Origin: Alphaproteobacteria bacterium
GTDB taxonomy: Bacteria > Pseudomonadota > Alphaproteobacteria > JAJFFI01
Length of the DNA: 64,000 bases
Direction of reading: 5' to 3'
Assembly (NCBI GenBank): GCA_030066595.1
Contig: JASJBI010000002.1
Location: 1-64,000 of the forward strand
The position numbers and the translations under genes are program-made. The notes beneath the pieces were generated by a model. That model did no database searches, was not told the origin of the DNA, and saw only the letters and a list, made by a program, of their open reading frames with translations. Position 1 is the first letter of the stretch. Each line of letters begins with the position of its first letter. Positions 19,790 to 32,998 of the stretch are shown here, piece by piece.

Positions 19790-22021
19790 CTAGCGGGCTT
19801 GTTCGTCTGCGCCTAGTTGGATCCGCCGCTGCAGCAGGCGCGCGCGCCGGGAGTTCGGGAACAGGCGGACCAGCCGGTCGGCGTAAGACTTGGCTTGCGC
19901 GTACTTGCCGTCGCCGAGATAGAAGAGCGCCAGGGCCTCGAGGATGCGGGGGTCCCGCTCCTCCAGCCGGTGAGCCGCCAGAAGCTCGGCCTCGGCCTCT
20001 TTGCGCCGTCCGAGATGCTGCAACACCAGGGCATGGTTGTACCGGACGCGCGGTTGGTACGGCAGGCGCCGGGCCGCCGCGCCGAGCGCCTCTGCCGCGT
20101 CGTCATACCGCTGCATTTCGCCCAGCAACAGCCCAAGCGAATAGTAGAGCCGGCCGTCGTCGGGCGCGTTCTCCAGCGCCGCCCGCAGCATCGCCTCGGC
20201 CTCGGTGTTGCGCCCGGTCTGGTTATAGAGGTGGGCGAGCGTGACATAGGCCGGGACGAGCCCGGGCGCGAGCCGCAACGCGGTCTTGTTGGCCCGTTCC
20301 GCGAGGTCCGGCCGGCCCCGGTTCATGTACAGGACACCCAGGTTCAGATGCGCCTCCGGCTGGTCGGCCATGGCCTCTTGTGCCGCCTCGTATTCGGCCA
20401 GCGCGTCTTCAAAGGCCTGGCGCCGGGGCGCCTCCAGTCGCGTCGTCGGCACCGGGGCCAGCACCCGCGCCGCCTCCAGCCGGACCGCGCGCACCGGGTC
20501 GTCCAGCAGGGGCGCGGCGTAGGCCGGCCGCCGGACCGGCGGCAGAGCCTCGATGGCGGCGAGCGCGCCCAAGCGCAGGAGAGGATCGTCGCTCTTGAGT
20601 GCCTCGACGACCGGCGCGAGGCTCCTGCGGCTGGTCGGCCGCAGCAACTGCAGCGCCGTCGCCCGCGCGATTGCGGATTGCGCCGGATCTTCGGCCAGCG
20701 CGACCAGCTTGGCCTCGGCCCCGGCCTGACCGTCGCGGCCGGCGGCGATGGCGTCGCCGAAATGGGCGCCCCGCCGGGCCACGCCGCCGGTCCAGGCCAC
20801 GATCGCGTCGGCCGCCCAGTCCGCCGGCTTATCCGCGTGGCAGCCGGTGCAGGCGTCGGGCGTTTCGAGCCGGGCCGAAAGGTCCGGACGGGGAATGCGA
20901 AAGCTGTGGTCCCGGCGCGGGTCGACCACCATGTAGCTGCGCGCCGGCATGTGGCAGTTGACGCACTGCGCCCCGGGCGAGCCGGCGGGGTGGTGATGGT
21001 GGGCGGGTGTGTCATAGGCCTTGCGGGGCAGGGACTCGAAGCGGGCGTCCGGTGCCTGCCCATGGCAGCGGACGCAGAGCGCGTCGCCGTCCGCTTTCAC
21101 GCGGGCGGTGTGGGGATCGTGGCAGTCGGTGCAGCGCACGCCGGCGCGCTGCATCTTGCTCTGCAGGAACGAGCCGTAAACATAGACCTCGTCCTGGATC
21201 TGGCCGTCCGGGAAGTAGAGCTCTTGGCGCAAGAGCGCCGGCCGGAAGTGGTCCAGGAACGGCGCGCCGTGTTCATAGTGTTGGGTGATCGGCGCGCGCC
21301 GCGCGTGGCACCGGGCGCAGGCCTCGATCTCCCGTCCGGGCGCGTCTTCTTTGAAACCGACGACCAGGCCCGTGTCGGCGTCTTCGGTCTTCTCGCCGGC
21401 CCGCGCCCAGGCGACGTGCCGCGCGCCGGGGCCGTGGCAGGCCTCGCAGCTGACGTTGATCTCGGCCCAGCTCGTCGCGTAGCTTTCGCTTTCGAGATCA
21501 TAGCGCTTGCGATAGCCGGTCGTGTGGCATTCGCCGCAGCGGCCGTTCCAGTTGTGCAGCCGTCCGGTCCAGTGGCGCGGATCGCCGGCCGCGATCTCGG
21601 CGTCGGGCAGCAGGTGGAACCAGCGCTTTCGCTCCGTGTCCCAGGCGATGGTCAGCGCCTGCAGCCGGCCCCCCGGCTGCGCGATCAGGTATTGCTGCAA
21701 GGGGGATATGCCGAAGGTATAGACGATCTCGAAATCGGCGAGCCGGCCGTCGGCGCCATCCGTGTTGACGACGTATTTGCCGTCTTTGCGGAAGAAGCGC
21801 GAGGTGACGCCCGCATGTGTGAATCGCGCGTCGTCGAAGTCGCCGAGGACGGTGTCCTCGGAGGCTTCCCGCATGGCCCAGTCGTGATGGGAGCCGGACC
21901 AGGCCTCTCCCTGCGCCTTGTGGCAGGCGACACAGGTCTCCCGGCCGACGAAATCTGCGGCGGCGGAGGCCGCCGAGCCCGCGTCGGCGGCGAGCCGCGC
22001 GGCCAGCCCGAAGGCCACCAC
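19790..22021 (-). CDS. exported octahaem cytochrome c with HEAT and TPR repeats
   Basis: 743 aa. Eight CxxCH haem motifs are visible (CVACH, CGECH, CEACH, CARCH, CTDCH, CVRCH, CVNCH, CTGCH) in the first 390 residues. HEAT-like helices (about 420-520) and several TPR units (about 540-735) follow. It is probably a periplasmic electron carrier or docking protein. The GTG at 22021 is only the best start in this frame: an ATG at 22116 overlaps the stop of the previous gene (TGATG) but runs into a stop after 22 codons. One extra base in the CCCGGG run at 22067-22072 would join it to a proper signal sequence, so a frameshift is suspected. Confidence 0.85.
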   Translation of the reverse strand: MVAFGLAARLAADAGSAASAAADFVGRETCVACHKAQGEAWSGSHHDWAMREASEDTVLGDFDDARFTHAGVTSRFFRKDGKYVVNTDGADGRLADFEIVYTFGISPLQQYLIAQPGGRLQALTIAWDTERKRWFHLLPDAEIAAGDPRHWTGRLHNWNGRCGECHTTGYRKRYDLESESYATSWAEINVSCEACHGPGARHVAWARAGEKTEDADTGLVVGFKEDAPGREIEACARCHARRAPITQHYEHGAPFLDHFRPALLRQELYFPDGQIQDEVYVYGSFLQSKMQRAGVRCTDCHDPHTARVKADGDALCVRCHGQAPDARFESLPRKAYDTPAHHHHPAGSPGAQCVNCHMPARSYMVVDPRRDHSFRIPRPDLSARLETPDACTGCHADKPADWAADAIVAWTGGVARRGAHFGDAIAAGRDGQAGAEAKLVALAEDPAQSAIARATALQLLRPTSRRSLAPVVEALKSDDPLLRLGALAAIEALPPVRRPAYAAPLLDDPVRAVRLEAARVLAPVPTTRLEAPRRQAFEDALAEYEAAQEAMADQPEAHLNLGVLYMNRGRPDLAERANKTALRLAPGLVPAYVTLAHLYNQTGRNTEAEAMLRAALENAPDDGRLYYSLGLLLGEMQRYDDAAEALGAAARRLPYQPRVRYNHALVLQHLGRRKEAEAELLAAHRLEERDPRILEALALFYLGDGKYAQAKSYADRLVRLFPNSRRARLLQRRIQLGADEQAR

Positions 22022-23823: not shown

Positions 23824-23926
23824 GTCTCCGTTTCCCTCTTCCGGAGCCCAGGATATTCGAACCCAGCGCGGCGGATCGCTGCTCGTGATCCCGCCGCGCC
23901 GGGGGATGGTAGACCGGCGCCCGCGC

Positions 23927-23951
23927 CTGAGAAACTGGCATCTTTGACAGG
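23927..23951 (-). promoter_or_regulatory. 25-bp shared motif, copy 1 (upstream of the STAS gene)
   Basis: Plus-strand consensus of the three copies: TG-R-GA-W-ACTGG-N-A-NN-T-N-T-N-ACAGG. Copies at 23927, 26392 and 31835 agree at 17 of 25 positions with no gaps. The outer CTG...CAG gives weak dyad symmetry. This copy ends 104 bp before the STAS-like gene. Confidence 0.55.
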
Positions 23952-24707: not shown

Positions 24708-26321
24708 TCAGTCATGCGCCGTCAACTCCGACCCCTTGGGCATCACATCCGACGTGCGGTGCGGAAACTTGGCGATCAGCTGCATGTGCCCGCGCATTGT
24801 AAATTGGATCGGCGTCACCGCATAAAGACCGGGATAGAACTGGCCGCGCTTCTCGGCCGGGTCCCGCATGACGTTGTAGAAGTCCATGGCCGGGAGCCCG
24901 CCGTGGCCGCCGGGCTTGATGTGGATCTTGAAATCCTCGTAGCGGATGGCCGCCAAGGTGCCGCCGCTGTAATGCATCAGGTAGTTGCGCCGCGAATGCC
25001 CCTCGCCCAGCAGCAGGAGCGGCGTCTGGTCGACGCCGTCGGTCACCCGATCGTTGGGGATCTTGTCCATCGCGCCCGCGAGCCGGGCCGCCGTGGTGTA
25101 CAGGTCGGTCAGGTGGATCATGTCGACCGGGTCCTGGTTCGGCTCGATCATGCCGGGCCACCAGGCCATTCCGGGCACGCGCACGCCGCCCTCTAGCACG
25201 TCGCCCTTGGCGCCCCGCAGCCAGGAATAGCCCGAGGTCGGCCAGAAGGCGTACATCGGCCCGTTGTCGCTCCACCACACCACCAGGGTGTTCTCGTCGA
25301 TGCCCTGCTCCTTGAGCGTGTCGAGCAGTTGCCGGATATGGTCGTTGTGCATGGCCATGAACGAGCCCTGCGCGTTGGCGTGGTCCACGTGCGGCGCGTC
25401 CTTGAACGCCTCCGAGCCCATGATCTGCTGGGTGTAGGTCGCCCAATAGATGAAGAAGGGCCTTTCGCTGTTGGCCTTGTCATTGATGAAGTCCTTGATC
25501 TGCTTGATCGACTCGGTTTCGAAGGCCTCCTGCCGCTTGATCCCGAGCTGGCCCGCAATGCCCGGGATCGGCCTGCGGCCCTTGTCCTTCTCGCCGATAT
25601 AGCCGGCGACGGACAGATCGATGCCGGTCCGCCTCTTGTATTCCTCCACGCCGACGAAGTCGTAGAACGGCGGCGCGGCCGGGTTCGGCATGGACTGCTG
25701 ATAGAACTCGGCGCTCATCGGCCAGGCATCGGGTGCGCCGTTGAACAGGCCGTAATAGGCATAGTCATAGCCCTGGTTCTCGGGCGCGTGCTCGGGCAGG
25801 TCGCCAAGATGCCATTTGCCCCACATGGCGGTGTGATAGCCGGCTTCGGAGAGTATCTCGGCGACCGTCACCTCCTCGGGCGACAGCCCCTCGGTCTGAC
25901 CGGGCCACAGCACGCTGAGGAGTCCCGTGCGCACCGGATGGCGGCCGGTGTTGATGGCGATGCGCGACGGCGTGCAAGAGGGCTCGGCATAGGCCGACCA
26001 GAAGCGCATGCCGTCGAAGGCCATCTTGTCGAGCTCGGGCGTCGGCGTGCCGCGGTGCTTGCCGCCGCCCTGCCAGCCGAGCTCGCCCCAGCCCACGTCG
26101 TCGGCCAGGATGTAGATGATGTTCGGTTTCTTGCCGAAGCGCTCTTCCAGGGCGGCGAGTTTGTCGTTGATGGTCTTGTCCTCCCCGGCCCAGGCGGCCT
26201 TGTTCTTCTCTTGATGCGACAGAAAGGGCGCGTCGGGTTGGAAGGCGTTTGCCGCGCCGGACAGCGCGATCGTGGTGGCAAGCACCGCGGCAAGCCGCAC
26301 TGCGTGGATTTCTGCTCTCAT
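24708..26321 (-). CDS. exported arylsulfatase (sulfatase 1)
   Basis: 537 aa. A signal peptide (AAVLATTIALSGAANA) leads into a sulfatase domain: NIIYILADDVGWGE holds the metal-binding Asp pair, and SCTPSRIAINTGRHPVRTG holds the Cys converted to formylglycine in a canonical C-x-P-S-R. GKWHLGD and WWSDNGP are further active-site blocks. It hydrolyses a sulfate (or phosphonate) ester in the periplasm; substrate unknown. AGGAGGGAG lies upstream of the ATG. The shared 25-bp motif and a barrel-gene remnant lie immediately upstream. No anaerobic or FGE-type maturase is in the window. Confidence 0.93.
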   Translation of the reverse strand: MRAEIHAVRLAAVLATTIALSGAANAFQPDAPFLSHQEKNKAAWAGEDKTINDKLAALEERFGKKPNIIYILADDVGWGELGWQGGGKHRGTPTPELDKMAFDGMRFWSAYAEPSCTPSRIAINTGRHPVRTGLLSVLWPGQTEGLSPEEVTVAEILSEAGYHTAMWGKWHLGDLPEHAPENQGYDYAYYGLFNGAPDAWPMSAEFYQQSMPNPAAPPFYDFVGVEEYKRRTGIDLSVAGYIGEKDKGRRPIPGIAGQLGIKRQEAFETESIKQIKDFINDKANSERPFFIYWATYTQQIMGSEAFKDAPHVDHANAQGSFMAMHNDHIRQLLDTLKEQGIDENTLVVWWSDNGPMYAFWPTSGYSWLRGAKGDVLEGGVRVPGMAWWPGMIEPNQDPVDMIHLTDLYTTAARLAGAMDKIPNDRVTDGVDQTPLLLLGEGHSRRNYLMHYSGGTLAAIRYEDFKIHIKPGGHGGLPAMDFYNVMRDPAEKRGQFYPGLYAVTPIQFTMRGHMQLIAKFPHRTSDVMPKGSELTAHD

Positions 26322-26391
26322 CGTTACTCCCTCCTGAATGCGTCCGCCCCCTGGTGTCCCTCTGAGACGGATCGTAATCCGGCGCAAGAGC

Positions 26392-26416
26392 TTGAGAAAC
26401 TGGTACTTCTTACAGG
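26392..26416 (-). promoter_or_regulatory. 25-bp shared motif, copy 2 (upstream of sulfatase 1)
   Basis: Contains ACTGGTACTTCTTACAGG on the plus strand, aligning without gaps to the copies at 23927 and 31835. It lies 70 bp upstream of the sulfatase 1 ATG, where a promoter or operator is expected. Confidence 0.6.
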
Positions 26417-26429
26417 GGACGGCGATTCG

Positions 26430-26459
26430 CCAGCGCAACGGCGCAATAATCGGCGTCAT
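26430..26459 (-). pseudogene. decayed 3' end of a barrel gene (tail A)
   Basis: The minus strand encodes MTPIIAPLRW, matching the end of the intact barrel protein (VAPIIPALF) and, better, the remnant at 31336 (VAPTIAPLRW). 18 plus-strand bases (CCAGCGCAACGGCGCAAT) are identical to the copy near 31336. It precedes sulfatase 1 just as the intact barrel precedes sulfatase 2. Confidence 0.5.
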
Positions 26460-26548
26460 CCCCATCATGAGTGGGGCCGAACAGGTTGCGCCGCGCCAAA
26501 GTCGGCGTCATCCCAATGGCCTGGGTTACGCTCGCGAGCATCGGCTCA

Positions 26549-28324
26549 CTAATTTCCGATCGCCTCCACACCAAGGACGACATCTCTTGCGTCGCCGTAT
26601 ATCTTCAGCCAGGTTCGCACCATGGCTTTCGTCTCCGGCCGCAGATTTTCCACGCCCTCGTATGGCATGCCGCGGGCGGGTTGCCAGTCAGGCCACTTGT
26701 CCTTCATTCGCAGGTGCTGGATGCGCATGCGCACGAAGGGCGTACCTGCCCAGACACCCTGGTATTTTAGGGGGTTATCCTCCCGCGGATCCCAATACAG
26801 GTTGTAGAACTCTGCCATGGCCGGGTTCACGCCCGGCGGCGGCCAGTGGATTTTCATGTTCTGTTTCACGGTCGCCTTGAGCGTGTCCACTTCATAGAGG
26901 TGCACGTAGTCACGGCGCCCATTGGTATCGCCTTTCAGGAGGATGGCGGTCTGATCGACGCCGTCGACGATGCGGTCACGGGGGATGCCGTCTGTGTTGC
27001 CGGCGATCCGGGCGAAGGTGGTGTAGAGGTCGCTGACAAAGACCATGTCCCCGGCGATGGAACCGGGCTCAATTGCGCCCGGCCAACGGATGAAAGCGCC
27101 GACGCGGTGACCGCCTTCCAGCGCCTGCCCTTTGGTGCCGCGAAACAGCCATTCGGAGTAGCCGGAGAGCTCAAGGTCCTGCTTCATCGGGCCGTTGTCG
27201 CCCATGACCATGACAATGGTGTTGTTCTCGATGCCCAGTTTCTTGATTTCGGCCAGGAGCTCGCCGATGTAGCCATCGACAACCGCCATGGCATTGGCCC
27301 AGCGTCCGCAGTTGGGGGTCTGGCACCCGCCGTCATCGGTTGACCTGAGAACAGCCACCGGGATTTGCGGCCAGTAGTTCAGGAAGAAGGGCTTGTCGCC
27401 GCTCGCCAGCGCGCGCAGTGACTCCACCGCTTGTTCCTGGAAACGGTCGTTGACCCTCTTGTAGAACTCGATGTCCGGCTTTTCTCCAGGCTTGATGCCC
27501 CACTCGCGCAATTTGCCGCCGCGCTTGCCCTCCACCTGGGTGACCCAGTCGTACAGTCGGAAGGTCTTGTCCAGCCCGTAGTCGGGGTCGACAGTGGTCG
27601 GTGTAAAAGAGGTCGTTCGGGCATCGAGTTCGGCGTCCCGTGTCAGGAAGCTATAGGCCACTTGGTTGTGCATGGGGAACGACGCGTAATCGAAACCCTG
27701 ATTGGTCGGATAGGCTTCCTTGATGTCACCCATATGCCACTTACCGATGTGGTGAGTCGTATAACCCGCATTGGACAGCAGCTCGGCGATCGTCACCTCT
27801 TTGTCATTAAACCCGACGCCCTCGGGCGGCGTGACCTTTGTGAGCTCCATTCCGGTCCGTACGGCATAGCGCCCGGTCATGAAGGCGACGCGCGTCGAGG
27901 TGCAGATGTTCTCTGCATAGAAACGGGTAAAGGTCATGCCCTCTTTTGCCAGGGTATCGAGGCTCGGTGTACGGCCACCACGGATCTTGTTCAGTTCCGG
28001 CATGCCAAACTCGCCGAAGCCCATGTCGTCGATCAGGATGTACACGATGTTCGGCGGCTTGCCGTCGTTGCGCTCCCTGATCTCGGCGAGCCGCCTATCC
28101 AGTTCCTTGTCCTCGGCGGCCCACTGCTCCGCATACTGATGCAAGAGAACATAGTGCTCCGCGTCATGCCGGATTGGTTGCGCGCTCGCCGCCGAAGCCA
28201 AGACGGCAGAGGCGAACGTAGTGATGCCAACGACTGCCGCGCTTTTGTAGGCGATGGAGCGAACCGCGCCCGACAGCGCACCGAAAAGTGCGGTCTCGCC
28301 GTGCTTTCGCGTCCTCATGTTCAT
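26549..28324 (-). CDS. exported sulfatase-family hydrolase with variant active site (sulfatase 2)
   Basis: 591 aa with an N-terminal export signal (VVGITTFASAVLASAASAQ). The sulfatase fold shows NIVYILIDDMGFGE, GKWHMGD and VMGDNGP, but the formylglycine motif reads ICTSTRVAFMTG. Ser replaces the Pro/Ala of C-x-P-x-R and Thr replaces the following Ser. Whether the Cys is still converted is open. It is longer than sulfatase 1 and only distantly similar. CGGAGAA precedes the ATG. It follows the barrel gene by 76 bp on the same strand. Confidence 0.88.
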   Translation of the reverse strand: MNMRTRKHGETALFGALSGAVRSIAYKSAAVVGITTFASAVLASAASAQPIRHDAEHYVLLHQYAEQWAAEDKELDRRLAEIRERNDGKPPNIVYILIDDMGFGEFGMPELNKIRGGRTPSLDTLAKEGMTFTRFYAENICTSTRVAFMTGRYAVRTGMELTKVTPPEGVGFNDKEVTIAELLSNAGYTTHHIGKWHMGDIKEAYPTNQGFDYASFPMHNQVAYSFLTRDAELDARTTSFTPTTVDPDYGLDKTFRLYDWVTQVEGKRGGKLREWGIKPGEKPDIEFYKRVNDRFQEQAVESLRALASGDKPFFLNYWPQIPVAVLRSTDDGGCQTPNCGRWANAMAVVDGYIGELLAEIKKLGIENNTIVMVMGDNGPMKQDLELSGYSEWLFRGTKGQALEGGHRVGAFIRWPGAIEPGSIAGDMVFVSDLYTTFARIAGNTDGIPRDRIVDGVDQTAILLKGDTNGRRDYVHLYEVDTLKATVKQNMKIHWPPPGVNPAMAEFYNLYWDPREDNPLKYQGVWAGTPFVRMRIQHLRMKDKWPDWQPARGMPYEGVENLRPETKAMVRTWLKIYGDARDVVLGVEAIGN

Positions 28325-28400
28325 GGCTGTTCTCCGCGATGAAAGGTGAAAGCGTAGGGATAGGGATGAAGGCGAAGTGCCGCGATGGCGCGTATGCCGC

Positions 28401-29609
28401 TCAGAACAGCGCCGGAATGATCGGCGCGACGACCACGCGGATGTTCCATTCCTGACCCAGCACGTCCGGCCGTTGCGGCATCCACTGGCCTTCGATCCCG
28501 AACTTGATCGGCATCCTGCCGAAGAAATGTGTCTTGTAGACACCGAAGCCCAAGGGCACGGTCCAGCGATCCCCGCTGTCGGCTTCCCAGTCGGCGGTGA
28601 TGATGGGCGTGCCGCCGATCTGCCAGCCGTCGTCAAAATTGAGGAAATAGAACAGGTTCAGCCAGGTGAAGTTGACGTCCGAGGCGTCGCTGCGGGTGCT
28701 CGCCACCGAGAACCACTGCTGCAGCAGGGCGCCCACGATGAACTTCCGACCGATGAACGCCAGAACGCCCGAGGGGCCCAAGGAGTACTGGTCGGTACCG
28801 AGGCGGGTGTCGCTCGCTGTCGGGAACTGTTGCGTGAGGCCGCCGGCCCAGACCAAATCGCCGCCGCCCCATCGCTCTTGCGGCAGGCTCTGGCCGACGA
28901 GCGAGAAATACACGATATCGCCGAAGCCACTTTTGCTCGTGAACGGCGCGCCGCCGGGTGGGGGGAAGCCCCCGATCTCGGGCGTGGCGCCGCCAATGAG
29001 CGTGCTCTGGACCTGTCCGACATCCGGGATGGAGGCATTCATGATGGTGGGAAAGGTCGGGCGGTTCACCCAGATCCAGTTCTCGCCAAGGGTCTCCGTC
29101 AAGGGAATGGGAATGACCGGTTGGAAGGCCCAGGTGTTCAGGTGGCGGGTCCGGCTGCTGATGTCGCCTTCGAGGAAGTAGTTGTCGAACTGATTGAGCA
29201 GGATCCAGAAGTTGCCGCCGAGCGGGTTCGAAGACTGCCGCGCCGCCTCCTCGACGCTGAGCCCCACGGCGCCCCCCTCTTCGGCGGGAGCCTGCTGATC
29301 GCCCGCAGGCTTTGCCGCAAGCTGCGTGCCGAAGAGATCGAGTTTGCGCAGCTGTGTTTGCCGGGCCGGATCGATCTGCAACGTTGCCCGGTCGGGCAGG
29401 TCTTGTTGTTGGCCGACCCGTTCCTCCGTAACCCGTCCCGGCTGGCCGCCCAAGGCCGGCGGCGGCGTTTTCCAGGATTTTGTCAGGGCGCGCGCAGCGG
29501 CGTCGCCACCTCCGTCGCCTGGCGCCACACCGTCCGCTTGCACGGCCCCCGCCAGCGCCGAGCCGCCGATCAACAAGAGCGCCCCAATGCGTGGTGTCAT
29601 CTCTACCAT
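28401..29609 (-). CDS. outer-membrane beta-barrel protein
   Basis: 402 aa. The signal peptide (ALLLIGGSALAGAVQA) is followed by a polar region to about residue 110. SNPLGGNFWILLNQFDNYFLEGD and alternating aromatic/polar strands end in a C-terminal Phe, as expected for a BAM-dependent barrel. This resembles transporter-type barrels often mis-annotated as 'neuromedin U'. It is the first gene of the minus-strand run leading to both sulfatases and may admit or hold their substrate. Three degraded copies of its 3' end lie nearby. Confidence 0.82.
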   Translation of the reverse strand: MVEMTPRIGALLLIGGSALAGAVQADGVAPGDGGGDAAARALTKSWKTPPPALGGQPGRVTEERVGQQQDLPDRATLQIDPARQTQLRKLDLFGTQLAAKPAGDQQAPAEEGGAVGLSVEEAARQSSNPLGGNFWILLNQFDNYFLEGDISSRTRHLNTWAFQPVIPIPLTETLGENWIWVNRPTFPTIMNASIPDVGQVQSTLIGGATPEIGGFPPPGGAPFTSKSGFGDIVYFSLVGQSLPQERWGGGDLVWAGGLTQQFPTASDTRLGTDQYSLGPSGVLAFIGRKFIVGALLQQWFSVASTRSDASDVNFTWLNLFYFLNFDDGWQIGGTPIITADWEADSGDRWTVPLGFGVYKTHFFGRMPIKFGIEGQWMPQRPDVLGQEWNIRVVVAPIIPALF

Positions 29610-29759
29610 GACTCCCCCGTGCCGCCCCTACTGGCACAAACGGGGCTCGGTATCGCTGTCGACGCAGCGCCCCGCTCTGTGCACGCCGCGGCATGACTTG
29701 CGACGCGCTGTCAGTCTATCATTGCGATGCTAAAAGAAGTGTTTCGCATGCCCAGCTTA

Positions 29760-29775
29760 CATACGCCCACGTATG
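29760..29775. promoter_or_regulatory. inverted repeat between tetR and barrel gene
   Basis: CATACG-CCCA-CGTATG is a perfect 6-bp inverted repeat with a 4-base spacer, 33 bp before the tetR start and 151 bp before the barrel gene start. It is a good candidate for the operator of the divergent TetR protein. Confidence 0.55.
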
Positions 29776-29807
29776 GTACTGACAAGTAGCATGAACGGTC
29801 AACCGTC

Positions 29808-30419
29808 TTGAACGAGCGACAATCAGAGCAGCCGCGCAAACGCTCCGGGAACCGTGCGCGGATGCGCTCTCCGGAGGACTGGCTCAAGCAGGCGCTGGTG
29901 ATCCTGCGGCGCGAGGGCGTCGAGGGCGTGCGCGTGGAGCGACTCGCCCGGGATCTCAGCATCTCCAAGGGGAGCTTCTATTGGCACTTCAGGGACCGTA
30001 GCGATCTCCTCGGACGCATGCTCGACTATTGGGACAGCGAGATGACCGGCGCCATCATCGAAGAAACCGAGCGCAAAGGCGGCACGCCGGTACAGAGGCT
30101 CTGGACGATCATGACCACGGTCAGGCGGCGGCACGCGGCGGACTTCGATGTTGCCGTGCGCGCCTGGGCCGCCTTCGACCGGACTGCCGCCAAGGTGGTC
30201 AAGCGGGTCGACGCCCGGCGGCTCGACTTTGTCCGGAGCAGATTTCGAGAACTCGGCTTCCGAGGCCGCGCGCTCGACACACGAACGCGGCTCTTCGTCC
30301 ACTATGTTTCGACCGAGCCTAGCATTCTCCCGCGCCCACCGGCCGCAGAGGGGGAAAAGCTCGCGCGTGCCGCACTCTCGCTGTTGACGGCGCGGCCAGA
30401 CGACCAAGGGCAAGGCTAG
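29808..30419 (+). CDS. TetR-family regulator divergent from the sulfatase locus
   Basis: 203 aa from a TTG start; an ATG at 29862 would give a more usual N-terminus. The helix-turn-helix is within ALVILRREGVEGVRVERLARDLSISKGSFYWHFRDRSDLL. The C-terminal domain is helical with no recognised ligand signature. It is divergent from the barrel-sulfatase run, with an inverted repeat in the 198-bp gap, so it probably controls that run. Its 3' end abuts a decayed sulfatase fragment. Confidence 0.9.
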   Translation: MNERQSEQPRKRSGNRARMRSPEDWLKQALVILRREGVEGVRVERLARDLSISKGSFYWHFRDRSDLLGRMLDYWDSEMTGAIIEETERKGGTPVQRLWTIMTTVRRRHAADFDVAVRAWAAFDRTAAKVVKRVDARRLDFVRSRFRELGFRGRALDTRTRLFVHYVSTEPSILPRPPAAEGEKLARAALSLLTARPDDQGQG

Positions 30420-30427
30420 CAGTGCAA

Positions 30428-30575
30428 GCGTCCAAGATGGTCTTGTCTTTCTCGGCCCAAGCCGTCTTGTTCTCTTCCAGATGCCAGAGAAGAGGGCCGT
30501 CGGGTCGGAAGGCGCTGGCCGCGCCGGGCAGGACGATGATCGGCGCGCCCCGCGCGACGTTCCGATCCGCGCTCG
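30428..30575 (-). pseudogene. fused remnant: barrel tail B joined to a sulfatase N-terminus
   Basis: Read on the minus strand, RNVARGAPII matches the barrel C-terminus (WNIRVVVAPII) and runs in frame into GAASAFRPDGPLLWHLEEN...KDKTILD. That second part matches the signal-peptide end and start of mature sulfatase 1 (GAANAFQPDAPFLSHQEKN); 22 of 34 residues are identical over the aligned stretch. No sulfatase active site remains. This is a deletion scar of a third barrel-sulfatase unit. Confidence 0.7.
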
Positions 30576-30598
30576 GTAACTGGACCGCGCCTGTGCGG

Positions 30599-30700
30599 CT
30601 ATCTCTCGGCGCGTTGCAAGACCTCGCCGCGGTCGACGTCGTGCTCTCTGACGGATTCCTTGATGAGCTGGCCGTGCGGATGCACGGCCTAGGCTTGCGT
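30599..30700 (-). pseudogene. decayed copy of the 65-residue gene
   Basis: The minus strand encodes PHGQLIKESVREHDVDRGEV, then LQRAER and a stop, matching the C-terminus of the intact gene at 31418 (PHDQLIEEFASEHDIDLGEV, LQRAKK, stop). Upstream of this an in-frame TAG and lost similarity show it is dead. The plus strands are about 80-85% identical by eye over roughly 90 bp. From 30702 to 30871 nothing else is recognisable. Confidence 0.7.
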
Positions 30701-30871
30701 GCACGCGGGTCAGCTCGCCGTGCCGCATGTGCCAAAGTGGCGCTGCATTACCACCGCAGACTTGTGCCAGATCATTTGCGCCACGCTCAGGGCATGCAGA
30801 TTATGACTGGTCTCGAAACGTCCATGCCGTGCTGTATCTGGAACATTTACATCCGCAATTGAGGGGAGGAG

Positions 30872-31261
30872 ATGATCATGCGTTTTTTCGATCCCGCGCG
30901 CTTTCACTTTGTCTTCCTTGTGCCCTTGGTGGCATCGAACCTCACGAGCGACAACGCGATGAGCGCCAAAGACCTGCGCGAGCAGTTCGTCGGCAATACG
31001 GTGGTCGCGCAGTTGCCACAAGGCACCGCATACGCCCTGGTGCGGCCGGACGGGGTCGCGCGCGGCCTGCACCCGGTTGAGGGGCGCATAAACGGCCGCT
31101 ATGAGATCGCAGACGATGGCGTCGTCTGCGTCACCTGGCCCCTTGCTTCGGGCGAAGTCAGGAATTGCGACAAGACCGTCGCGCAAGGAGGTCGGAAATA
31201 TAACTGGGAGGGGAAGACGCTGGAGGTTCTTCCAGGCGATCCAAAGGGGCTGGGCAAGTAA
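30872..31261 (+). CDS. small exported protein of unknown function (129 aa)
   Basis: The N-terminus has a hydrophobic stretch (FHFVFLVPLVASNLTS) that may be a signal peptide. The mature part (MSAKDLREQFVGNTVVAQL, then GRYEIADDGVVCVTW and CDKTVAQGGRKYNW) resembles a widespread family of small periplasmic proteins with a 'DLRxxxxGNTV' start and two Cys. No function is assigned. GGGGAGG lies upstream of the ATG. It is the only plus-strand gene between tetR and mdh. Confidence 0.65.
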   Translation: MIMRFFDPARFHFVFLVPLVASNLTSDNAMSAKDLREQFVGNTVVAQLPQGTAYALVRPDGVARGLHPVEGRINGRYEIADDGVVCVTWPLASGEVRNCDKTVAQGGRKYNWEGKTLEVLPGDPKGLGK

Positions 31262-31335
31262 GGCTGTCTCGATAGACTGAAGAGGGCCATTCAGCTTGGC
31301 CCGTGTGCTGCGGATGGCTGGACGCGAGGAAGCGG

Positions 31336-31386
31336 CCAGCGCAACGGCGCAATGGTCGGCGCGACAAACCAGCGGATGTTCCATTC
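31336..31386 (-). pseudogene. decayed 3' end of a barrel gene (tail C)
   Basis: The minus strand reads EWNIRWFVAPTIAPLRW, against EWNIRVVVAPIIPALF with stop in the intact barrel; the frame then runs on past the old stop. It lies directly downstream of the intact 65-residue gene on the minus strand. Confidence 0.7.
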
Positions 31387-31417
31387 TGGGTGCGACGCCG
31401 GCTCCGCGCCGGCGCGG

Positions 31418-31615
31418 CTATTTTTTGGCGCGCTGCAAGACCTCGCCGAGGTCGATGTCGTGCTCGCTGGCGAATTCCTCGATCAGCTGATCGTGCGGAT
31501 CGCCGGGCTGCATCTGGCCCGCAAGCGGAATGGTCCGACCCGCGTCAACGTGCAGAGCTAGAGCCACCGCCCCGGCAATGAGCAACAGGCCCAAGATCCA
31601 TCTTCCTGATAGCAC
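31418..31615 (-). CDS. 65-residue membrane-anchored protein of unknown function
   Basis: One N-terminal hydrophobic helix (ILGLLLIAGAVALAL) followed by a polar, acidic tail, PGDPHDQLIEEFASEHDIDLGEVLQRAKK. It could be a signal anchor or a cleaved leader. No family is recognised. A decayed copy at 30599 shows selection once kept at least two copies, each next to barrel or sulfatase remnants. The 25-bp shared motif lies 220 bp upstream. I infer it belongs to the sulfatase locus. Confidence 0.6.
   Translation of the reverse strand: MLSGRWILGLLLIAGAVALALHVDAGRTIPLAGQMQPGDPHDQLIEEFASEHDIDLGEVLQRAKK

Positions 31616-32998
<1,383 letters not shown>

Follow-up and report, generated by a model that had tools for sequence, protein, structure and literature searches.

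Organization of the locus

We analysed a stretch of 64,000 nucleotides (nt) from an alphaproteobacterial genome assembly (GCA_030066595.1, contig JASJBI010000002.1, positions 1 to 64,000), hereafter called the window, which contains two sulfatase genes and a gene for a predicted outer-membrane barrel protein together with short remnants of such genes. Read from right to left on the minus strand, the locus begins with an open reading frame (ORF) of 65 residues, followed by a barrel tail, the 3′-terminal part of another copy of this ORF, a probable barrel tail fused to the beginning of a sulfatase, the intact barrel gene, sulfatase 2, a barrel tail of 27 nt and sulfatase 1 (Table 1). The position of the intact barrel in front of sulfatase 2 agrees with a preliminary description of this DNA. 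Two plus-strand genes lie amid this row, an ORF of 129 residues between the copies of the 65-residue gene and a TetR regulator between the fused relic and the intact barrel. The region is likely to be what remained after a barrel-sulfatase operon had been duplicated locally and its copies had decayed.

Table 1. Genes, gene relics and upstream elements of the locus (positions in the window)
Feature	Position	Strand	Basis
Third copy of the upstream element, before a SpoIIAA-like gene	23904..23951	-	Leave-one-out scan
Sulfatase 1, intact, S1-type	24708..26324	-	PF00884, E 1e-42; motif CTPSR
Upstream element of sulfatase 1, 75 nt	26342..26416	-	51/75 identical to 31785-31859
Putative barrel 3′-end relic, probably formerly preceding sulfatase 1	26429..26455	-	25/27 to 31335-31361
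Sulfatase 2, frame intact	26549..28336	-	PF00884, E 2e-36; motif CTSTR
Intact outer-membrane barrel, predicted COG4313-like channel	28401..29609	-	AlphaFold barrel; best solved match 4rl8
TetR-type regulator, divergent from the barrel operon	29808..30419	+	PF00440, E 3.5e-8
Relic of a second sulfatase 1, signal-peptide end and mature N-terminus	30436..30537	-	Match to 26169-26270
Probable barrel 3′-end relic, in frame with the sulfatase relic	30545..30568	-	p 0.0005 vs intact barrel
Second 65-residue gene copy, 3′ fragment with stop at 30599	30585..30690	-	Match to 31404-31500
ORF of 129 residues between relics, N-terminal hydrophobic stretch	30872-31261	+
Barrel 3′-end relic directly after the 65-residue gene	31335..31386	-	Match to 28407-28451
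65-residue ORF, GTG start, hydrophobic N-terminus, orphan	31418..31615	-	GC by codon position fits coding
Second copy of the upstream element, ahead of the 65-residue ORF	31785..31859	-	Leave-one-out scan

Remnants of barrel, sulfatase and 65-residue genes

The relic region from 30420 to 31640 (about 1.2 kb) was compared with the whole 5.08-Mb assembly. Besides itself it gave exactly three matches, all of which resided within its own locus. The remnants of local copies are genuine and lie well beyond chance. The relic of the sulfatase matched the beginning of sulfatase 1, on the same strand, at 80.6% over 103 alignment columns (window search, E 5e-19; genome-wide, E 6e-18), and at the protein level it reached 58% over 43 residues of the sulfatase 1 N-terminus. 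Its frame is open and continuous from the barrel-like residues A-P-I-I (ORF 30319-30735), confirming the in-frame fusion of a barrel remnant to a sulfatase start that had been reported before.

Three remnants of the barrel C-terminus had been described on the minus strand, and all of them aligned above chance, if to a different degree. The tail at 31.3 kb is a strong case, since its positions 31342-31386 matched the end of the intact barrel at 82% over 45 nt (E 7e-5 genome-wide). The relic in front of sulfatase 1 resembled the 31.3-kb relic at 93% (E 0.003 genome-wide) and the intact barrel only weakly (p 0.01); its position 105 nt before the ATG of sulfatase 1 supports its reading as a barrel relic. 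The relic at 30545 is the weakest of all, with a p value of 0.006 against the 31.3-kb relic in addition to the one given in Table 1, both obtained by shuffle tests. The shuffle tests of the relic likenesses agreed with the genome-wide search. Beside the relic in front of sulfatase 1, the sequence GGGATGACGCCGA occurs twice, approximately 50 nt apart, at 26448-26520 of the minus strand. The two occurrences may flag the border of a deletion or belong to another barrel fragment.

The two copies of the 65-residue gene (31404-31500 and 30585-30681) matched at 84.5% over 97 nt (E 2e-24 in the window), and the stop codon was kept. Thus, a dead copy with a conserved stop codon does exist, yet it is not a whole gene: only about the last 30 codons are present, and no clear similarity was detected upstream of approximately 30690. 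Both copies run into a barrel tail 30-31 nt past the stop codon, and they do so at the same barrel position. As two independent deletions would hardly pick the same point, the truncation of the barrel is probably older than the duplication of this piece, a conclusion that rests partly on the weak relic at 30545.

The intact barrel and the two sulfatases

The AlphaFold model of the barrel protein was mostly confident from about residue 120 onwards, with pLDDT values mostly above 75 and low values at residues 197-221. DSSP strands extended across residues 134 to 399 of the model, giving a barrel of approximately 12 strands. Its rank-1 solved structural match was Pput2725 of Pseudomonas putida (PDB 4rl8; E 2.6e-6, TM score 0.66 by target length and 0.46 by query length), a channel of the COG4313 / Phenol_MetA_deg type. 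The COG4313 family has been implicated in the uptake of hydrophobic molecules (PMC4493636). Judged from its predicted fold, the intact barrel looks like a COG4313-like channel for such molecules. It differs from these channels by a long extra N-terminal part modelled with low confidence and by the lack of a PF13557 match, on account of which we call it COG4313-like and not a member; among 20 aligned barrel relatives only two matched PF13557. Elsewhere the genome encodes another barrel of this family (44%; contig C31, locus L009, 3069-4433), and no sulfatase was found beside it.

Both sulfatases exceeded the PF00884 cut-off of 25 bits by far (147 bits for sulfatase 1 and 126 bits for sulfatase 2), and three genes for formylglycine-generating enzymes scored over the cut-off of PF03781 in the genome. 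In these respects, and by the CxPxR motif of sulfatase 1, which fits the activation motif C/S-x-P/A-x-R, they resemble S1 formylglycine sulfatases such as arylsulfatase 7aj0 and arylsulfatase A. Sulfatase 2 deviates from them by a serine replacing the proline of the motif (near 27890), whereas its nearest kin possess CTPTR. Its activation by formylglycine-generating enzymes may therefore be impaired.

The two sulfatases were only 38-39% identical to each other. Sulfatase 2 is nearer to sulfatases of Ruegeria (50%), which have no such barrel beside them. By these comparisons sulfatase 2 is a separate, older branch and not a recent copy of sulfatase 1. Hence it can hardly be a unit of the same recent array, as which it had been regarded before.

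Sulfatase 1 and its barrel partner in other bacteria

Sulfatase 1 showed 73% and 74% identity to proteins of two loci, L014 and L127, both from Desulfobacterales bin36. L014, on the chromosome CP070746.1, also contains the barrel closest to the intact barrel in the species-genome collection (66%), the barrel of a further locus, L015, reaching 52%. In L014 the barrel is followed by the relative of sulfatase 1 and by an ORF of 416 residues, which was read from its own sequence as a FadL-type channel. The spacer between barrel and sulfatase comprises 102 nt there, compared to 105 nt between the relic and sulfatase 1 in the window. The similar spacers and the gene order of L014 suggest that a barrel probably once directly preceded sulfatase 1 and was then deleted. 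The bin36 cluster is unlike the window in that the FadL gene follows, the barrel carries an in-frame stop codon, which may be genuine or due to faulty sequencing, and neither sulfatase 2 nor a 65-residue gene was found. Together with the confinement of the genome-wide matches to the locus, the barrel-sulfatase 1 pair of bin36 bears out the earlier proposal that genes were duplicated locally and subsequently deleted.

A second copy of the sulfatase-FadL pair on the bin36 chromosome (L127) is 82% identical in DNA to the pair of L014 and has no barrel. Thus, kin of sulfatase 1 have been duplicated, and occur barrel-free, elsewhere too. Considering also the stop codon in the L014 barrel, loss of the barrel with retention of the sulfatase may have happened more than once. 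The samples of genomes from the class and the phylum disclosed one distant barrel and no close relative of sulfatase 1. A sulfatase was located within 700 nt in 11 of 58 non-Pseudomonas barrel loci, and the gene arrangements support a genuine pairing of barrel and sulfatase.

The 65-residue ORF and the shared upstream element

The GC content of the 65-residue ORF by codon position (0.73/0.38/0.74) is that of a coding gene, and a plausible ribosome-binding site was read from the upstream sequence. The protein matched no family, and searches of 72,556 plasmids and 50,697 phages gave no relative. Weak matches among 399 phylum-level genomes and the six genomes that carry the closest loci were attributed to chance, nearly all of them lying inside larger frames, and small ORFs in front of Ruegeria sulfatases turned out to be unrelated on inspection. 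No 65-residue gene precedes the intact barrel directly, nor was one found in any relative searched; of the co-occurrence of the three genes for which relatives were searched, only the adjacency of barrel and sulfatase 1 was encountered, in L014. Mismatches between the copies in the window are spread equally over first, second and third codon positions (6/6/6). This pattern would be expected if at least one copy were free of protein constraint, but as one copy is dead the test is weak. The ORF is linked to the system only by its co-duplication and by an upstream element, and the statement that its product is a true member could not be confirmed.

This element of 75 nt lies in front of sulfatase 1 and of the 65-residue ORF (z 7.2) and partially, over 48 nt, in front of a SpoIIAA-like gene. 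When 215 kb of the genome were scanned in leave-one-out fashion, each copy was recovered by the other two with scores of 33-42, compared to at most about 20 elsewhere, and there were no copies besides these three. The sequences preceding sulfatase 1 and the SpoIIAA-like gene gave a gapped alignment of approximately 130 nt (z 9.4). The element may act as a common control sequence or be another duplicated fragment. It contained no site matching a sigma-70 promoter, and as a TetR operator it was rejected, since no copy was found between the TetR gene and the barrel.

Neighbouring genes

The TetR regulator contains a TetR_N domain (33.5 bits, cut-off 24). A TetR protein encoded in L127, 37% identical to it over 119 residues, is likewise transcribed divergently, there from the related sulfatase. 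The ORF of 129 residues belonged to no Pfam or NCBIfam family and had no plasmid relative, one weak PHROG match being all that was obtained, and no known RNA families were found in the region. A multihaem cytochrome-TPR protein is encoded at 19790-22021 on the minus strand of the window, and relatives of it recur in distant bacteria in the vicinity of barrel and sulfatase genes (L044, L049, L067, L071, L079). Of the 58 non-Pseudomonas loci, 18 have a sulfatase somewhere in the fetched stretch; such a relative was present in 5 of these and in none of the other 40 (Fisher p 0.002; p 0.085 with the Pseudomonas loci included). These values serve as a guide only, because the loci share ancestry to an uncertain extent and were divided post hoc.

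Discussion

The relics, their mutual relatedness, the order of barrel and sulfatase 1 relative in bin36 and the truncation point common to both copies of the 65-residue gene argue with good confidence for local copying of parts of a barrel-sulfatase operon. The relic in front of sulfatase 1 is nearer to the 31.3-kb relic than to the intact barrel, which suggests that the relics on the one hand and the intact barrel on the other represent two branches. The minimum needed to account for the locus is one truncated sulfatase 1 unit, which was copied, beside one unit of barrel and sulfatase 2; three or four full units are possible, not required.

The preliminary description had gone further and assumed that at least three or four complete units of 65-residue gene, barrel and sulfatase once formed a row and disappeared through independent deletions; a changing substrate selection was conjectured from these losses. 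Such an array is favoured by the presence of four 3′ ends of barrels, two of the 65-residue gene and two beginnings of sulfatase 1. Nevertheless we regard it as unlikely, as the junction between the 65-residue stop codon and the barrel tail is identical in two copies, the 65-residue gene neither directly precedes the intact barrel nor was found in relatives, and sulfatase 2 is too distant from sulfatase 1 (39%) for a recent copy. It appears equally improbable that the 65-residue ORF encodes a real small membrane protein of an undescribed barrel-sulfatase system, placed under the control element of sulfatase 1, with copies of the module repeatedly gained and lost. A more serious, though still less probable alternative is that a block containing TetR, barrel and sulfatase 2 (about 26.5-30.4 kb, between the relics at 30436 and 26455) arrived later and interrupted a pre-existing series of truncated sulfatase 1 units. 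The edges of the block coincide with relics, and sulfatase 2 is a distinct branch with a lower GC content at third codon positions than sulfatase 1 (0.78 vs 0.89). The intact barrel, however, is the nearest kin of the bin36 barrel preceding a sulfatase 1 relative and need not be foreign, and no insertion sequence was noticed among the ORFs of the region, whose edges were not searched specifically.

The short likeness at 26429-26455 might also belong to a duplicated upstream control region held in common with the SpoIIAA-like gene instead of being a barrel relic. The alignment of the two upstream regions and the weak direct match to the intact barrel would fit this explanation. We consider it rather doubtful, because the sequence agrees at 25 of 27 positions with a relic that clearly derives from a barrel and is situated at the right distance from sulfatase 1. 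Some points do weigh against duplication debris as the origin of the region. At 27 nt and 24 nt, the smallest relics are almost too short for a judgement, so few fragments do not fix the order of events, and the intact barrel has no PF13557 match by sequence. Moreover, in the one other genome of the same family and order that was compared (68% complete) the locus was not found.

On the reading as duplication debris, we infer that an ancestral pair of barrel and sulfatase 1 lost most of the barrel. The truncated piece, consisting of the end of the 65-residue gene, the barrel tail and the start of sulfatase 1, would then have been copied beside itself and have eroded, leaving sulfatase 1 intact. 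The surviving operon would comprise barrel, sulfatase 2 and sulfatase 1, with the divergent TetR gene probably controlling it. Its COG4313-like channel may pass hydrophobic sulfate esters across the outer membrane, and both sulfatases, activated by the formylglycine-generating enzymes of the genome, might remove the sulfate in the periplasm.

Short eroded copies beside intact genes are also left by ordinary tandem duplication with copy loss in bacteria, from which the locus differs in nothing essential. The process is an ordinary evolutionary one whose remains are unusually readable here, and nothing known is overturned. The locus illustrates the wear of a two-gene module for uptake and desulfation, in which the sulfatase stays intact and the channel is lost, as may likewise have happened in a remote Desulfobacterales genome. 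It further points to a recurrent partnership of channel and sulfatase, of which a few targeted searches of the literature yielded no description, and the shared upstream element could show which genes are controlled together.

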